Assembly (NCBI RefSeq): GCF_023223645.1
Contig: NZ_JALKBY010000002.1
Coordinates: forward strand, 186,001-250,000
Direction of reading: 5' to 3'
DNA from: Natroniella sulfidigena
GTDB taxonomy: Bacteria; Bacillota; Halanaerobiia; Halobacteroidales; Halobacteroidaceae
Length of the DNA stretch: 64,000 nucleotides
In this document: in pieces, positions 981 to 6,927 of the stretch
Numbering within the stretch: position 1 is the first letter of the stretch
Layout: every line of letters starts with the position of its first letter
Position numbers and translations under genes: made by a program
Notes under the pieces: generated by a model
Seen by the model: only the letters and a program-made list of their open reading frames with translations
Databases searched by the model: none
What the model was told of the DNA's origin: nothing

Positions 981-1009
981 AGTATAGAACATATCTGATA
1001 CTTTGTCAA
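981..1009 (-). promoter_or_regulatory. Proximal ilvB promoter (P2)
   Basis: On the minus strand TTGACA (1004-1009) and TATACT (981-986) are separated by exactly 17 bp, so the -35 is a perfect sigma-A match and the -10 is near perfect. Transcription would start near 974, just before the complete T-box. Confidence 0.85.
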
Positions 1010-1034
1010 GAATTTTTTGTTCGGTTATACAGTT

Positions 1035-1135
1035 TAAGGGTGAGAGAAATAATAGATCTGACCTCGGTTCTCAGCTACTCCGATTCTCTGTAATCAAATC
1101 AAATTACTTCAGCCCCTCTCATTACTTTTCAGCTT
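1035..1135 (-). promoter_or_regulatory. Orphan T-box Stem I-like module upstream of the ilvB T-box
   Basis: Between two minus-strand promoters lies RNA with the layout of a T-box Stem I. It has a 5' arm GAGGGG followed by a CTGAAGTAA K-turn-like strand. It has an AGAGAA bulge and a distal stem TCGG/CCGA around a 12-nt loop, AGTAGCTGAGAA, the same loop length as in the complete T-box. The 3' arm is CTCACCCTT. CTC (1042-1044, Leu) sits one nucleotide before the CCCTT that pairs with the 5' arm. No T-box sequence or terminator of its own follows before P2. This is my structural reading by eye; it may be a remnant or a second tRNA-sensing domain. Confidence 0.5.
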
Positions 1136-1153
1136 TATTTATATTTAATTAAC

Positions 1154-1182
1154 AGTATATGAAATATTGAAACTAATGTCAA
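1154..1182 (-). promoter_or_regulatory. Distal ilvB promoter (P1)
   Basis: On the minus strand TTGACA (1177-1182) and TATACT (1154-1159) have a 17-bp spacer. The transcript would begin near 1147 and include the orphan Stem I-like module, P2 and the complete T-box. Confidence 0.75.
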
Positions 1183-1227
1183 GGATTATTTTTTTAATTT
1201 TAATCAGTTTATTGTTAACTCTGAAAT

Positions 1228-1253
1228 ATAACCATTGACAATCATCAGGTTAT
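1228..1253. promoter_or_regulatory. Candidate BirA operator
   Basis: ATAACC (1228-1233) and GGTTAT (1248-1253) form an inverted repeat with a 14-bp spacer, one base per half away from the TTAACC-N14-16-GGTTAA core of Firmicute BirA sites. It covers the -35 and most of the spacer of the promoter at 1235-1263, a position suited to repression. The second gene of the operon is bioY, which makes BirA the natural candidate. The assignment is from pattern and context only. Confidence 0.65.
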
Positions 1254-1263
1254 TTATTATAAT
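1235..1263 (+). promoter_or_regulatory. Promoter of the hot-dog/bioY operon
   Basis: TTGACA (1235-1240) and TATAAT (1258-1263), both perfect consensus, are separated by 17 bp. The start would be near 1270, giving a 5' untranslated region of about 200 nt. Confidence 0.85.
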
Positions 1264-1269
1264 GCCAAT

Positions 1270-1471
1270 AGTAAGAGCAATTTACAGTTAAAACCTTTAA
1301 CACAAAACCTACTAAAAGAACAAAATGAGCTGTCGCCCATTTCAGGTTAAGGTTAAGTCTGAGTCTAAGTAACCCATTTAAAAACAGTAAAATTAAAAAG
1401 TCATCCATAACCTTAAAAACCATAATTTACTAAGCAATAAAAAATTATTATGTTGAAGGAGTTATTACCTA
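1270..1471 (+). other. Long 5' untranslated region of the bioY operon
   Basis: No gene is seen here. The RNA can form a local hairpin (AAATGAGC 1323-1330 with GCCCATTT 1335-1342, one mismatch) and a 9-bp longer-range stem (TTAAGGTTA 1347-1355 with TAACCTTAA 1408-1416). I recognise no known riboswitch. A Shine-Dalgarno AAGGAG lies about 10 nt before the ATG at 1472. Confidence 0.4.
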
Positions 1472-2140
1472 ATGAGACAAGAAATCAACTTTACTTTTCA
1501 ACAATTACAGAATTGGAAGCAAAGTTTCAGCTTACAATTTGCCTGGCAGGATTATTATCCAGCCAGTATTGCTGCTACTTTAGCCTTATCAACCTTAAAC
1601 AAAGAGGTTGATACAGGTTATTACTTAGCTCAACAAGAACTTAGAAGCACTCAACTTCCCAAGCTAAATGATAATCTAACTCTAACTAGTCAAATAACTA
1701 GACAGAAGAAGTTAAGTAATATATCTTATATAAGTTGTCAATCAAGAGCAAGTACAATTAAACAGAATTTAATTGAGCTTAAATCTAAATTAATTAAACC
1801 TGAAGTTGCTTCTTCTTATCAAGATAATCCCTACTTAGGTGATTCAACTTATTGGCGTAGCTTTACTACTCAACAAGTTTATAACTTTAGCCAATTAAGC
1901 TCTGATCCCAATCAGATTCATTTGACTGAACAGCCAGTTGTCCAAGGCATGCTTCTTTTATTGAGCCTAGAAGATTATCTAGCTCAGCAAGATAGATTTT
2001 TAAAAAAGTTAAAGATTAATTATCTTAGACCAGTTACAACAGGACAAAGAATTAATTTAGCCTGGGTAGAAAAGAATAGTCTCTTAGGTATTATTAAAAA
2101 CCAGATTCATTTCAAATTAAAACTCAAGGAGGAATTTTAA
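1472..2140 (+). CDS. Double hot-dog, MaoC/FAS1-type dehydratase-like protein
   Basis: This 222-residue protein ends in a MaoC-like hot-dog segment. Residues 137-163 read FSQLSSDPNQIH followed by PVVQGML, matching the R-specific hydratase motif with catalytic Asp (D145) and His (H150) five residues apart. The N-terminal half (about residues 20-110, with DYYPASIAATLA) looks like the degenerate N-terminal hot-dog of FAS1-type 3-hydroxyacyl-thioester dehydratases. The expected reaction is reversible hydration/dehydration of a 3-hydroxyacyl thioester in the cytosol. It is the first gene of an operon with bioY (next start directly after this stop), a thiolase-like protein and an acyl-CoA ligase, under a candidate BirA operator. 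Substrate unknown; a role in making or trimming a pimeloyl-type biotin precursor is inference. Confidence 0.65.
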   Translation: MRQEINFTFQQLQNWKQSFSLQFAWQDYYPASIAATLALSTLNKEVDTGYYLAQQELRSTQLPKLNDNLTLTSQITRQKKLSNISYISCQSRASTIKQNLIELKSKLIKPEVASSYQDNPYLGDSTYWRSFTTQQVYNFSQLSSDPNQIHLTEQPVVQGMLLLLSLEDYLAQQDRFLKKLKINYLRPVTTGQRINLAWVEKNSLLGIIKNQIHFKLKLKEEF

Positions 2141-2683
2141 ATGACAAATAGTAAATTAACTATTCAAGATTTAACTTACTCAGCATTATTTGCTGCTCTA
2201 ATTAGTAGTGTAGCATACTTAGCTATTCCAATCCCTTTTAGTCCAGTTCCAATTACATTACAAACACTTGTTGTGATGCTAGCAGGTGCTACACTAACAA
2301 CCAAACAAGCTGGATTAAGTATGCTTATCTTTTTACTAGTAGGTATCAGTGGAGCACCAGTCTTTTCAAGCGGTAGAGCAGGAATTGGAGTTTTTGCAGG
2401 GCCATCAGGTGGTTATTTAATAGCCTATCCTTTAGGGGCAATCATTATTAATTTATTAGCTAAAAAAGATAGTTACTATCAAACTGCTCTAGCTATGATC
2501 TTAGGAGGACTTGTGATTATTCATCTATTAGGAGTACTCTGGATGGGTTTTGTAACAGAGATGGGTTTAGCTGAGGCTTTTATTTCAGGAAGTTTGCCTT
2601 TTATTCCTGGAGATTTAATTAAAGTAGTAGCAGCTGTTCCACTCAGTATCAAAATTAATAATAGTTTAGCAGGTCGAAGGTAA
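2141..2683 (+). CDS. bioY: BioY, biotin-binding S component of an ECF transporter
   Basis: A 180-residue hydrophobic protein with about six membrane segments. It has the family pattern PIPFSPVPITLQTLVVMLAG (residues 30-49) and later FAGPSGGYLIAYPLGA. This is the BioY signature of the high-affinity biotin-capturing component of energy-coupling-factor transporters. It starts immediately after the hot-dog gene stop and its stop overlaps the next start (2683), so translation is coupled. The ATPase and transmembrane partners ecfA1, ecfA2 and ecfT lie in this window at 12.4-14.9 kb and are the likely shared energy module. Regulation by BirA is expected for bioY and is supported by the inverted repeat at 1228-1253. 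Confidence 0.93.
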   Translation: MTNSKLTIQDLTYSALFAALISSVAYLAIPIPFSPVPITLQTLVVMLAGATLTTKQAGLSMLIFLLVGISGAPVFSSGRAGIGVFAGPSGGYLIAYPLGAIIINLLAKKDSYYQTALAMILGGLVIIHLLGVLWMGFVTEMGLAEAFISGSLPFIPGDLIKVVAAVPLSIKINNSLAGRR

Positions 2684-3843
2684 TGGAAGAGGTTTATATT
2701 TTAGGAGGGCTTAGAACTCCAATTGGAAAGACTGGCGGAAACCTTAAAGAGCTGTTACCTGAAAAGATGGCAGCCTTTATCTTAAATCAAGCTCTCGAAA
2801 AGTACAATTTAGAAGCTGAAGTTATAGATGAAGTTATCTTAGGAAATGCAGTCGGCTTAGGTGGCAATATAGCTCGCCTCTCCTTATTAGAAGCAGGTTG
2901 GCCACTTGAAATACCAGGAACAACAATTGATTTCCAATGTGGTTCTGCCCTTAGTGCAATCAATCTAGGGGCCAACTTAATCAAAGCTCAGCAAAAGGAT
3001 TTTGTAATTGTAGGTGGAGTAGAGAGTACAAGTCTAGAGCCTAAAAGGCAATTTCATGAAGCTGATCCCCGTTTTAGAAGAGCAGATCACTTCTTAGAAC
3101 GTGCTATCTTCTCCCCTCCTTCCTTAGGGGATCCTGATATGGGCCAAGGTGCTGAAAATGTAGCAGAGTTAAAGAAGATATCTAGAAGAGCTATGGATCG
3201 TTGGGCTTTAAAGAGCCATCAGCGGGCCAACTCTGCTCAACAACAAGATATTCTTAAAGATATTATAGCTCCTTTAGAGGTCAATGGAGAGCTAATAGAC
3301 TCTGATGAAAGTATCAGACCCCAAATATCTTCTAAATTACTTAGCAGAATGAGACCTGTCTTTAGAGAGGATGGTAAGGTGACTGCTGGAAATTCATGCT
3401 TGACCCATGATGGGGCAGCAGTGATTATTTTGGCTTCACAAGAAGCTATCGAAAGTTATAACTTATCCCCTCAAGCAAAATTTATCACAGGTGTTACTGT
3501 TGGAGTTGACCCTAACCTCTCACCATTAGGAGCTACTGCTGCTATTAAGAAACTCTTAACCAAGCAAGATTTAACAAGCAATTCTATTGATGCTGTAGAA
3601 ATAAATGAAGCCTTTGCAGTCAAGATTTTAGCAGCTTTACAAGAACTAGAAATTAATGAGGAGCAGATTAATATTCTAGGAGGAGCTTTGGCCTATGGAC
3701 ATCCTTACGGAGCATCAGGAGCAATTATTCTACTCCATTTAATTCAAACCTTGCAAAAAATCGATGGCAAACTTGGTATCGCAGCTTTAGGAGTTGCTGG
3801 CGGACAAGGAATAGCCTCATTAATTGAAAGGTGTGATCAGTAA
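2683..3843 (+). CDS. Thiolase-like acyltransferase lacking the second catalytic cysteine
   Basis: 386 residues, the length of acetyl-CoA C-acetyltransferases. The nucleophilic cysteine is present (C86 in DFQCGSAL), as are N308 in NEAFA and H340 in GHPYGASG. The C-terminal block that normally reads CxGGGxG is GVAGGQG, so glycine 370 replaces the usual base cysteine. Canonical thiolases join or cleave 3-ketoacyl-CoA. The missing cysteine suggests a different or weaker Claisen chemistry, or an acyl-transfer-only enzyme. The gene is translationally coupled to bioY and followed by an acyl-CoA ligase, the same company as YhfS in the B. subtilis yhfUTS group, which is known to be BirA controlled. 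The family is sure, the reaction is not. Confidence 0.85.
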   Translation: MEEVYILGGLRTPIGKTGGNLKELLPEKMAAFILNQALEKYNLEAEVIDEVILGNAVGLGGNIARLSLLEAGWPLEIPGTTIDFQCGSALSAINLGANLIKAQQKDFVIVGGVESTSLEPKRQFHEADPRFRRADHFLERAIFSPPSLGDPDMGQGAENVAELKKISRRAMDRWALKSHQRANSAQQQDILKDIIAPLEVNGELIDSDESIRPQISSKLLSRMRPVFREDGKVTAGNSCLTHDGAAVIILASQEAIESYNLSPQAKFITGVTVGVDPNLSPLGATAAIKKLLTKQDLTSNSIDAVEINEAFAVKILAALQELEINEEQINILGGALAYGHPYGASGAIILLHLIQTLQKIDGKLGIAALGVAGGQGIASLIERCDQ

Positions 3844-3844
3844 G

Positions 3845-5179
3845 ATGTTAATTCATGGAACTTTAACTAATCATGCAGCAAACTCTCCAGACAAACCTGC
3901 TTTGATCACCCCAACAGAAAGATTAACCTACAAACAATTAAATACTAAGACTGATCGATTAGCCACTAAATTAGCAGCTATTACCGAACTAGGAGACAAG
4001 GTAGTGATCAATTTATCAGATCCAATCCAAAATATCTGCTTCTTATTGGCTGCTGCTAAAGCTGGATTGGTCAGTGTTGTAGTTGATTATCAATTAAGTG
4101 GGAGAGATTATCAACAATTAATTGAAGAAGCAGAGCCTGAATTTATCATTGCTGATGATTTTGAATTTACTACTGAACAAGAGGCTGAAGTACCTCAAGT
4201 AAGAACGAAAGATCTCTTTTTAGGAGCCTTAAGCTCTGGTAGTAGTGGCACACCAAAATTGATCTGGCGTGATCATTATAGTTGGGTCAGTGCCTTCAAA
4301 CACCAAAGTAAGGTATTTAACTTAAGTAAGCAAGATCGAATCTTATTGGTTGGCCCGTTAAGTTATACGGCCAATCTCAATAATGCCCTCCATCTAATCT
4401 ATGAAGGAGGTACAGTCGTAATAACTCGATCTAAATTTCCCAAGCAATGGCTTAAAGTAATCAGCCAAGAAGAGATCAGTGCTATCTTTATGGTTCCTGC
4501 CCATTATCGCTTACTACTTAAAGCTTTGCATAAACCATTACCCCAAATTAGATCATTGATCAGTGCTGGGGCCAAATTGGATGCTTCTACTGCTAAAGAA
4601 TTGACAACTTACTTTCCTCAAGCTCAAGTCTGTGAATATTATGGAGCAAGTGAATTAGGCCATGTCAGTTATGCTTTTGCAGAAGAGATCATTAAATCGA
4701 AGACAACGGTTGGAAGAGCCTTTCCAAAGGTTAAGCTCTGGATTGAAGATGGACTGATCTGGGTTAAAAGTCCTTATCTAGCAGTAGATTATCGGCCACA
4801 AGCAACCAGCAAAGATTTAGGCTATCTCGACAAGGATGGTTATCTACATTTGACAGGTCGACAGAATAATCTGATCAATAAAGCAGGTTTTAAGATCAAT
4901 CCAGTTAAGATTGAAACAGTAATTTTGCAACATCCACAGGTTTTAGAAGTTGCTGCAATTGGGATTAAAGATCAATTAAAGGAAGAAACTATAGCCTTAG
5001 CAATTGTGACAGCAGATTCACAACTGACTAAACAGGCTCTTAGAAAGTACTACCAGCAACAACTCCCTCAGCGATTTTGGCCCGAACAGATCATCTTTGT
5101 TGAGCAATTACCACAACTAGAATCAGGCAAGCTAGATCGACAGCAGCTTAAGGCTAAGTTTAAGATTAAGTATAAGTAA
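3845..5179 (+). CDS. AMP-forming acyl-CoA ligase (YhfT-like)
   Basis: 444 residues from the ATG at 3845, one base after the thiolase stop; an upstream in-frame TTG at 3824 would overlap the thiolase and is less likely. Adenylate-forming motifs are in order: SSGSSGTPK (about 130-138), YGASE (266-270), DLGYLDKDGYLHLTGR (324-339) followed by an A8-type KAGFKINP, and a C-terminal ESGKLDR with the catalytic lysine near 429. It should activate a carboxylic acid with ATP and load it on CoA. It is short for the family (typically 500 or more), with a compact N-terminal domain. In context with bioY, pimelate or another biotin-related acid is a reasonable but untested substrate. A strong terminator follows at 5184. 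Confidence 0.85.
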   Translation: MLIHGTLTNHAANSPDKPALITPTERLTYKQLNTKTDRLATKLAAITELGDKVVINLSDPIQNICFLLAAAKAGLVSVVVDYQLSGRDYQQLIEEAEPEFIIADDFEFTTEQEAEVPQVRTKDLFLGALSSGSSGTPKLIWRDHYSWVSAFKHQSKVFNLSKQDRILLVGPLSYTANLNNALHLIYEGGTVVITRSKFPKQWLKVISQEEISAIFMVPAHYRLLLKALHKPLPQIRSLISAGAKLDASTAKELTTYFPQAQVCEYYGASELGHVSYAFAEEIIKSKTTVGRAFPKVKLWIEDGLIWVKSPYLAVDYRPQATSKDLGYLDKDGYLHLTGRQNNLINKAGFKINPVKIETVILQHPQVLEVAAIGIKDQLKEETIALAIVTADSQLTKQALRKYYQQQLPQRFWPEQIIFVEQLPQLESGKLDRQQLKAKFKIKYK

Positions 5180-5183
5180 AACA

Positions 5184-5217
5184 AAGAAAGGTCGGGGTTA
5201 AAACCCCGACCTTTCTT
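5184..5217. terminator. Bidirectional intrinsic terminator between the bio operon and ilvD
   Basis: AAGAAAGGTCGGGG and CCCCGACCTTTCTT form a perfect 14-bp stem around TTAAAA. The A/T-rich flanks let it act for the plus operon and, from the other side, for ilvD. Confidence 0.85.
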
Positions 5218-5223
5218 ACTATT

Positions 5224-5267
5224 CTAATTACTAATCACTAGCAATTAGTCACCAATCACTAGTCACT
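5224..5267. repeat. AT-rich TAGTNA/CACTA repeat tract
   Basis: The tract is built of near-copies of CTAATCACTAG and TAGTCAC between the terminator and the ilvD stop. Similar tracts occur at 490-520, 8850-8890, 9035-9066 and 10577-10612. No coding function. Confidence 0.5.
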
Positions 5268-5268
5268 A

Positions 5269-6927
5269 CTACCCCAAAACAGCTCCTGTATTTGCTGAAC
5301 TTACTAACTTAGCATACCGAGATAAATAACCAGTCTTGATCTTTGGTTCTGGTGCTTCCCAGTTTGCTAATCGCTCTTCAATCTCTGCAGCACTTAATTT
5401 AACATTCAATTTACCATTAGGAATATCGATTTCAATAATATCTCCTTCTTCAACAGCAGCAATTGGCCCACCTTCCATTGCTTCTGGTGAAATATGACCA
5501 ATTGAAGCACCTCTAGTTGCTCCAGAGAAACGACCATCAGTAATTAATGCTACTTCTTTATCCAAACCGACACCTGCTACAGCAGATGTTGGAGTCAGCA
5601 TCTCTCGCATTCCTGGCCCACCTTTTGGCCCTTCATACTTGATCACTACTACATCTCCAGCTTTAATCTCACCATTATGAATAGCCTCTACTGTTTCCTC
5701 TTCAGAACTAAAGACTCGAGCTGGCCCTTGATGGACTAACATCTCCTCTGCTACTGCTGCCTGCTTGACAACAGCTCCATCAGGAGCAATATTTCCAGTC
5801 AATACAGCTAAGCCACCTGTTTGATGATAAGCAGTAGTAAAGTCTCTAATCACATCATCATTTAAGACCTCTACCTCTGCTAAGTTCTCTTCAATTGTCT
5901 GTCCAGTAGCTGTGATTAAATCTTCCTTAAGCAAGTTATTATCACTTAAGACCTTCATTACAGCTGGAATTCCTCCTGCTCGATCCAAATCTTGAATATG
6001 ATGCTTCCCAGCTGGACTTAGACTACATAAATGTGGTACTTCCTCTTTAAATTGATTAATCAACTCTATATCTAAATCAATTCCTGCTTCATGTGCAATA
6101 GCTGGCAGGTGTAGTGCTGTATTAGTCGAACATCCTAAAGCCATATCAACCTTTAAAGCATTATCAAATGCTTCTTCAGTTAAGATATCTAACGGCTTAA
6201 TATCCTTTTCGAAAAGTTCTAACACCTGTTGGCCCGCCTGCTTAGCCAATCTTACTCGCTCTGCATAAACAGCAGGGATTGTCCCATTGCCTGGTAAACC
6301 CAACCCTAAAACTTCTGTTAGACAGTTCATTGAGTTAGCAGTAAACATCCCTGCACATGAGCCACAACTTGGACAAGCACTATTTTCAATCTCTAATAAT
6401 TCTTCTTCAGACATTTGATCTGTCTTAACTGCTGCTACTCCTTCAAAAACGGTCTTTAAATCTATATTCTCACCTTGATGGTGACCTGCTAGCATTGGCC
6501 CGCCACTGACAACTACTGTAGGAATATTCAATCTAGCTGCTGCCATTAGCATACCAGGCACAATCTTGTCACAATTAGGAATCAAAACCAACCCATCCAA
6601 AGCGTGAGCTTTAGCCATCGTTTCTACAGAATCAGCAATCAACTCTCTACTGGCTAATGAATAATGCATTCCTTGGTGTCCCATTGCTATCCCATCACAA
6701 ACACCAATTGAGCCAAATTCTAAAGGTGTTCCTCCTGCTATTCTAATCCCATCTTTAACTCCTTGAGCAATCTTATCTAAATGGACATGGCCCGGAATCA
6801 ATTCATTAACTGAATTACAAACTCCAATCAATGGCTTTTCTAACTCCTCATCTGTTAAACCCATTGCTTTAAATAATGATCTCTGTGGTGCACTATCAAC
6901 TTTTTTAGTTACCTTCTCACTTCTCAT
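5269..6927 (-). CDS. ilvD: Dihydroxy-acid dehydratase
   Basis: 552 residues, full family length. Iron-sulfur ligand cysteines are visible in GVCNS (C37), PNCDK (C119) and the [10 protein letters not shown] block (185-194). The C-terminal half has the [11 protein letters not shown] and GRFSGATRG motifs. It dehydrates 2,3-dihydroxy-isovalerate and -methylvalerate to the 2-keto acids of Val/Leu and Ile. The start at 6927 has AGAGGAGG just upstream on the minus strand. It has its own promoter and no visible T-box, unlike ilvB. The two ilv genes are on the same strand but are interrupted by the opposite-strand bioY operon. Confidence 0.96.

Follow-up and report, generated by a model that had tools for sequence, protein, structure and literature searches.

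A BioY-linked operon of acyl-thioester enzymes in Natroniella sulfidigena and its possible role in rebuilding the side chain of biotin vitamers

Four genes at positions 1472 to 5179 of a 64,000-nucleotide stretch of the Natroniella sulfidigena genome (NZ_JALKBY010000002.1, positions 186,001 to 250,000 of the forward strand; the whole stretch is referred to as the window) were confirmed to form a tight operon on the + strand. It could represent the core of a BirA-repressed pathway which extends the shortened side chain of a biotin vitamer by two carbons, for example from bisnorbiotin to biotin. We consider this proposal plausible, although it falls short of being probable. The genes of the operon, hereafter the cassette, are as follows (L and G numbers in the text denote loci and genomes of our survey).

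1472 to 2140, + strand: predicted double hot-dog (R)-specific enoyl-CoA hydratase / 3-hydroxyacyl thioester dehydratase of 222 amino acids, with the motif D145-x-N147-x-I149-H150
2141 to 2683, + strand: bioY, substrate-binding component of the biotin energy-coupling factor (ECF) transporter (Pfam BioY, E=3.2e-42)
2683 to 3843, + strand: predicted YhfS-type thiolase-fold condensing enzyme (TIGR01930, 397 bits; PRK06690), with C86, N308 and H340 kept and G370 in the place of the general-base Cys, assigned also by tree and model
3845 to 5179, + strand: predicted YhfT-type AMP-forming acyl-CoA ligase (Pfam AMP-binding, E=4e-45; best NCBIfam model PRK07638)

Neighbouring genes of the cassette abut or overlap by one base, and for the ligase the ATG at 3845 is preferred to the TTG at 3824, where the mechanically called open reading frame (ORF) begins. 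The genes for BioY, the YhfS-type thiolase and the YhfT-type ligase are adjacent and on the same strand, as in the yhfUTS operon, and the best models for the latter two are PRK06690 and PRK07638, which we take to represent YhfS and YhfT, respectively. The initial annotation had read the order hot-dog protein, bioY, thiolase-like protein and ligase as an extended yhfUTS group, and with the ORFs confirmed this reading stands. Likewise, the activation of an acyl thioester, the C-C bond formation and the (de)hydration which it had assigned are in agreement with the predicted gene families.

The operon is predicted to be controlled by BirA, based on the following two elements upstream of the hydratase gene.

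1212 to 1241, + strand: BirA-type operator TTGTTAAC-N14-ATTGACAA, an inverted repeat matching at 14/16 positions (p about 0.005 vs shuffles), whose right arm overlaps the -35 hexamer
1235 to 1263, + strand: sigma-70-type promoter TTGACA-17-TATAAT, a 12/12 match and the sole such site in 1000-5300

Most of the related cassettes are preceded by the same operator motif with the right arm on the -35 hexamer, and in two Paenibacillaceae-like cassettes it matches at 16/16 positions. The host genome encodes a BirA with an N-terminal helix-turn-helix (HTH) domain, so that the control which had merely been implied in the initial annotation is supported by the sequence of operator, promoter and regulator. 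Binding and control by BirA are established for yhfUTS in B. subtilis and for yhfS-yhfT in S. aureus, where the products of yhfS and yhfT are described solely as a putative acetyltransferase and an acyl-CoA ligase (PMC4016012, PMC6391492).

The residues of the thiolase-fold enzyme may point to the type of reaction. While the nucleophile C86 as well as N308 and H340 (window numbering) are invariant in all 33 cassette thiolases, the second cysteine of the CxGGG motif is replaced by Gly, Ala or Ser in 33/33, compared to Cys in 79/79 of the other aligned thiolases. The window enzyme carries G370 where the classical Cys378 stands and consequently comprises the nucleophilic Cys, Asn and His of a classical thiolase, but not its second catalytic Cys. 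In the Zoogloea thiolase, Cys378 serves as the base and Asn316 and His348 have an oxyanion role (PMC3406046). Since none of the cassette members retains the base cysteine, they are unlikely to perform the ordinary reversible thiolase reaction, and a decarboxylative condensation, which does not need such a base, would be the natural alternative. In the tree, the cassette thiolases all lie beyond one branch with a support of 100/100, and positions 122 (R/K, rarely P) and 352 (H/R) also separate them from the controls; these residues, mostly basic in the cassette members, may help to bind a malonyl or vitamer group. The structure model of the window thiolase reached a predicted local distance difference test score (pLDDT) of 94. 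The YhfS sequences closest to those of B. subtilis and S. aureus in the alignment, from Bacillus badius and Domibacillus, both lack the Cys, and based on the residue signature the label "acetyl-CoA acetyltransferase" for YhfS-type enzymes appears doubtful. The control thiolases originate from a contig scan with the thiolase alignment, which gave mostly ordinary thiolases after the first ~8 loci. The phylum survey also gave matches of 320-342 bits, which were rejected, as those inspected for residues and neighbourhood were ordinary beta-oxidation thiolases. For the ligase, no specificity is indicated by the PDB profile matches, which spread across many enzymes adenylating acyl and aryl substrates.

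The assignment of the hydratase would be weak by Pfam alone, since the match to MaoC (E=0.0074, 16.3 bits) lies below the gathering cut-off of 27, but it is upheld by the catalytic motif, profile matches and the predicted fold. The D-x-N-x-I-H motif is located in the C-terminal half and is invariant across six homologues, and a profile search gave matches to the (R)-specific enoyl-CoA hydratase 1iq6 and to 3-hydroxyacyl-thioester dehydratase 2 (3ir3), both with an E of about 0.02. The best fold match of the model was the double-hot-dog 2-enoyl-CoA hydratase 2 (1pn2, Foldseek E=1e-6), with an identity to the best fold matches of ~10-12%; as the model is modest (mean pLDDT 53, under 50 in the N-terminal half and better in the catalytic half), it was used for the fold class only. 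Compared to the (R)-specific enoyl-CoA hydratases of the MaoC type, the protein would thus share the hot-dog fold and the D-x-N-x-x-H motif, but not the Pfam score. In relatives the hydratase is split into two ORFs, of which the catalytic one is HadB-like. At L015 and L174 a FabZ-like gene is found (Pfam FabA just below the cut-off in L015), and because it replaces the MaoC-like one, a role as dehydratase is supported.

The arrangement recurs in distant Bacillota and is not a product of chance. When the hot-dog protein was searched against 398 genomes of the phylum, five matches besides the window were obtained, all of them (5/5) beside bioY, thiolase and ligase; three are only 24-33% identical and still lie inside the same gene set, and the gene order of the window is kept at 4/5 loci, with one rearranged. 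A search with the thiolase, in which no selection for the hot-dog protein was involved, revealed 15 further carriers with readable surroundings, and in 10 of these the cluster includes a hot-dog protein of the dehydratase type (MaoC-like at L016, L018, L026, L029, L172, L173 and L175; two MaoC ORFs at L176; FabZ-like at L015 and L174). In a metagenome-assembled genome of Eubacterium (L018 3299-4348), a BioB gene directly precedes hot-dog protein, thiolase and ligase, bioY is divergent, and a BirA-type repeat lies between. In Domibacillus (L136 4006-4753), two adjacent MaoC-type ORFs directly follow bioB, which looks like a split form of the window double hot-dog protein moved to another biotin locus.

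Fuller operons were observed in a Paenibacillaceae-like family, in which 12/120 genomes encode a YhfS-type thiolase. Two forms can be distinguished.

Operon A, full form (L198, L200, L205): bioY, ligase, thiolase, two MaoC ORFs, short-chain dehydrogenase/reductase (SDR), EcfA1, EcfA2, EcfT and FabK-like reductase
Operon B (L206-L208): bioY, EcfA1, EcfA2, EcfT, adenine-deaminase-like protein, ligase, thiolase and SDR, with an acyl-CoA dehydrogenase and a fused double hot-dog protein further on

Operon A also occurs in variants in which bioY was not seen (L176, L199) or which comprise no Ecf genes (L201, L202, L204), and in L205 a gene for an HTH-bearing BirA is divergent from bioY. Its SDR scores best with FabG models, while the FabK-like protein reaches 278 bits with TIGR03151 (cut-off 453) and matches FabK structures. 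Judged by these predicted functions, the reductases are of the anabolic type and operon A is a complete set for activation, condensation, reduction, dehydration and second reduction. The initial annotation had pointed out that the cluster comprises no reductases; this is true of the window, whereas the operons of relatives hold both the FabG-like and the FabK-like enzyme. In operon B, the adenine-deaminase-like amidohydrolase (L206 11746-13461, same place in L207 and L208) lies between the genes of the ECF transporter and the ligase.

The substrate has to be considered in the light of the biotin-synthesis genes, of which BioB and BioF were searched in the host genome (98.7% complete). No BioB was found over the cut-off (best 105 vs 225 bits), and a BioF match (TIGR00858, 427 bits at a cut-off of 426) was rejected as Kbl, the gene adjoining threonine dehydrogenase (L138 4910-6079). 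The host appears unable to make biotin. A Kbl just above the TIGR00858 cut-off could lead automatic annotation to mislabel such a genome as BioF-positive. Among the carriers of the cassette, BioF was not found in 14/16 after the matches in G000 and G220 had been discounted (Kbl, and in G220 long proteins resembling 8-amino-7-oxononanoate synthase). In a genome of the same genus (G009), the bioA-D-F-W-B operon is complete and a hot-dog gene is missing. Across the 398 genomes, BioB was commoner in carriers (9/12 vs 87/386, p=0.0002), with 7/12 coming from one family and the counts thus being non-independent, while BioF was not enriched (3/12 over the cut-off including the Kbl match, p=1.0). Within the Paenibacillaceae-like family, BioB was present in 0/9 carriers of operon A compared to 62/108 non-carriers (p=0.0008), and in 2/3 carriers of operon B. 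Organisms with BioB only are known as salvagers of dethiobiotin, and transporters of the BioY type are assumed to take up other vitamers as well (PMC6593275). In two genomes, small membrane proteins of ~160 amino acids resembling ECF S components adjoin bioW (L127 7502-7990, L130 4236-4715) and are possibly precursor transporters.

A rebuilding of the side chain on a ready-made ring is suggested by the combination of derepression at biotin shortage, the link to the transporter, a single C2 elongation, and carriers which are mostly unable to use pimeloyl thioesters and often lack ring closure. BioY and the energising ECF components would import a carboxylic acid vitamer, which the YhfT-type ligase would convert to the CoA thioester. 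The YhfS-type enzyme would then extend the chain by two carbons, probably through a condensation in which a malonyl thioester is decarboxylated; this is proposed because the nucleophilic Cys and the Asn/His oxyanion residues are kept while the thiolase base is lost. A FabG-like ketoreductase from elsewhere in the host genome would reduce the product, and the hot-dog dehydratase followed by a FabK-like enoyl reductase, also from elsewhere in the genome, would complete one round of elongation. The likeliest substrate would be a biotin vitamer whose side chain has been shortened, such as bisnorbiotin, which would be rebuilt to biotin; where BioB is present, carriers could also use the corresponding form of dethiobiotin. 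Bisnorbiotin is among the human catabolites of biotin (PMC11203980). The data show the gene content, the operator, the catalytic residues, the complete operon of relatives and the lack of genes for biotin synthesis in most carriers; direction, use of malonyl and, above all, the substrate are what we infer here. The wider claim, that biotin-auxotrophic Bacillota import breakdown products of the bisnorbiotin type and rebuild the valerate chain via a dedicated BirA-controlled cycle with a new, probably decarboxylating class of thiolase-fold enzymes, has to be regarded as doubtful.

The main rival explanation would be an adjustment of lipids during biotin starvation, in which the release of BirA leads to the synthesis of BioY together with enzymes activating or remodelling ordinary fatty or short-chain acids for the membranes. 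The enzymes are of the types known from fatty-acid metabolism, biotin limitation is described to disturb the membranes of S. aureus (PMC12642757), and carriers both with and without biotin synthesis would be accounted for. However, the full operon is tied to an entire ECF biotin transporter, and a lipid response should be indifferent to BioB, yet operon A is found within its family only where BioB is missing. Moreover, a decarboxylative elongase would consume malonyl-CoA, which is scarce under biotin shortage. A lipid response is considered rather unlikely.

Another explanation would be that the ligase and its partners trap or modify imported biotin, or serve an unrelated acid which is merely co-regulated with bioY. 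Imported acids are known to be retained through vectorial activation by acyl-CoA ligases, but neither the full reductive cycle in one operon nor the loss of the base Cys in every cassette member would be explained, which makes this improbable. Similarly low is our estimate for the oxidative direction, in which a longer homologue or a conjugate would be trimmed to biotin by beta-oxidation of the side chain. MaoC-type hydratases run both ways and operon B comprises an acyl-CoA dehydrogenase; nonetheless, the thiolase lacks the acid/base Cys used in thiolytic cleavage, most full operons hold a FabK-like reductase, longer-chain homologues of biotin are uncommon in nature, and a degradation of biotin itself would be senseless under BirA repression.

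That a pimelate-like chain feeding BioF is made, salvaged or trimmed, as an unrecognised route to a pimeloyl thioester, is the least likely reading for the host genome and very improbable: although the window thiolase resembles 3-oxoadipyl-CoA thiolase, the source of pimelate in the BioW pathway is still described as unknown (PMC11089781) and G257 carries BioW, BioF and BioB plus the cassette, BioF and often also BioB are missing in most carriers, BioF is not enriched, and for the host it is contradicted unless both genes sit in the missing 1.3% of the genome. Of the initial annotation, the pimelate-like chain for de novo biotin synthesis is not supported, while its idea of side-chain salvage or trimming survives if the chain belongs to a ring-containing vitamer. 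A cluster beside a complete standard pimelate route, which it had named as an argument against itself, was found in part, since in Domibacillus a yhfUTS-type set lies beside a complete bioADFHC operon, with genes of the bioC/bioH type.

The rebuilding of shortened vitamers has to face several objections as well. Cassettes are also found where biotin synthesis is complete (Domibacillus and, according to the literature, B. subtilis), and the association counts take no account of relatedness. The loss of the Cys is by itself no proof of decarboxylative chemistry, and the use of malonyl-CoA would require a working acetyl-CoA carboxylase, itself a biotin enzyme. As substrate, bisnorbiotin is merely a proposal reached by elimination, and the acyl-CoA dehydrogenase in the place of FabK and the adenine-deaminase-like protein of operon B fit the trimming direction equally well.

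The surroundings of the cassette comprise two further features.

663 to 956 and 2 to 367, - strand: T-box leader before an ilvB-type acetolactate synthase gene, divergent from the cassette
5184 to 5217, no strand assigned: palindromic terminator-like hairpin with a 15-pair stem, its T tail called on the - strand and a symmetrical TTTCTT on the + strand

The hairpin is located between the 3' end of the cassette and the convergent ilvD. The T-box at 663-956 was ruled out as a riboswitch of the cassette, since it lies on the opposite strand and belongs to ilvB, and no riboswitch was found at the cassette by Rfam. In G007 (L009) the cassette likewise adjoins ilvB/ilvN/ilvC, and as this position is common to both, it appears to have been inherited within the family.

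The three-gene yhfUTS operon and its control by BirA were already known. In the literature searched, neither the dehydratase nor the full operon nor the loss of the cysteine was found to be described, and as most subscription papers lie outside this literature, the priority is uncertain. The data place yhfS and yhfT in a complete acyl elongation set which is tied to biotin import and occurs mainly in organisms without BioF. If the proposed salvage is true, breakdown products of biotin would be usable vitamers for auxotrophs, and current predictions of biotin requirements for anaerobe and gut communities would be incomplete.

Compared to yhfUTS of B. subtilis and bioY / yhfS-yhfT of S. aureus, the window has BioY, the YhfS-type thiolase, the YhfT-type ligase and BirA operators in common, whereas the operons of these two species, as described, contain neither dehydratase nor reductases; the window operon is led by the hot-dog hydratase, and in relatives it is joined by EcfA1/A2/T and by reductases of the FabG- and FabK-like types. 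With (R)-specific enoyl-CoA hydratase / hydratase 2 and mycobacterial HadAB, the hydratase shares the predicted double hot-dog fold and the D-x-N-x-x-H motif, but it differs in being below the Pfam MaoC cut-off and linked to bioY. A decarboxylative extension of an acyl-CoA by an enzyme of the thiolase superfamily, as proposed here, is also found in biotin metabolism with BioZ and related enzymes of the 3-ketoacyl-acyl carrier protein synthase (KAS) III type, which belong to the alpha-proteobacterial route to pimeloyl-acyl carrier protein; unlike BioZ, the cassette enzyme belongs to the thiolase family and not to the KAS III family, and most carriers have no downstream BioF. Finally, the full turn of ligase, condensing enzyme, ketoreductase, dehydratase and enoyl reductase would be the same as in reverse beta-oxidation and type II fatty acid synthesis, while here it is encoded in one dedicated operon with a biotin transporter and relies on a condensing enzyme without the thiolase base.

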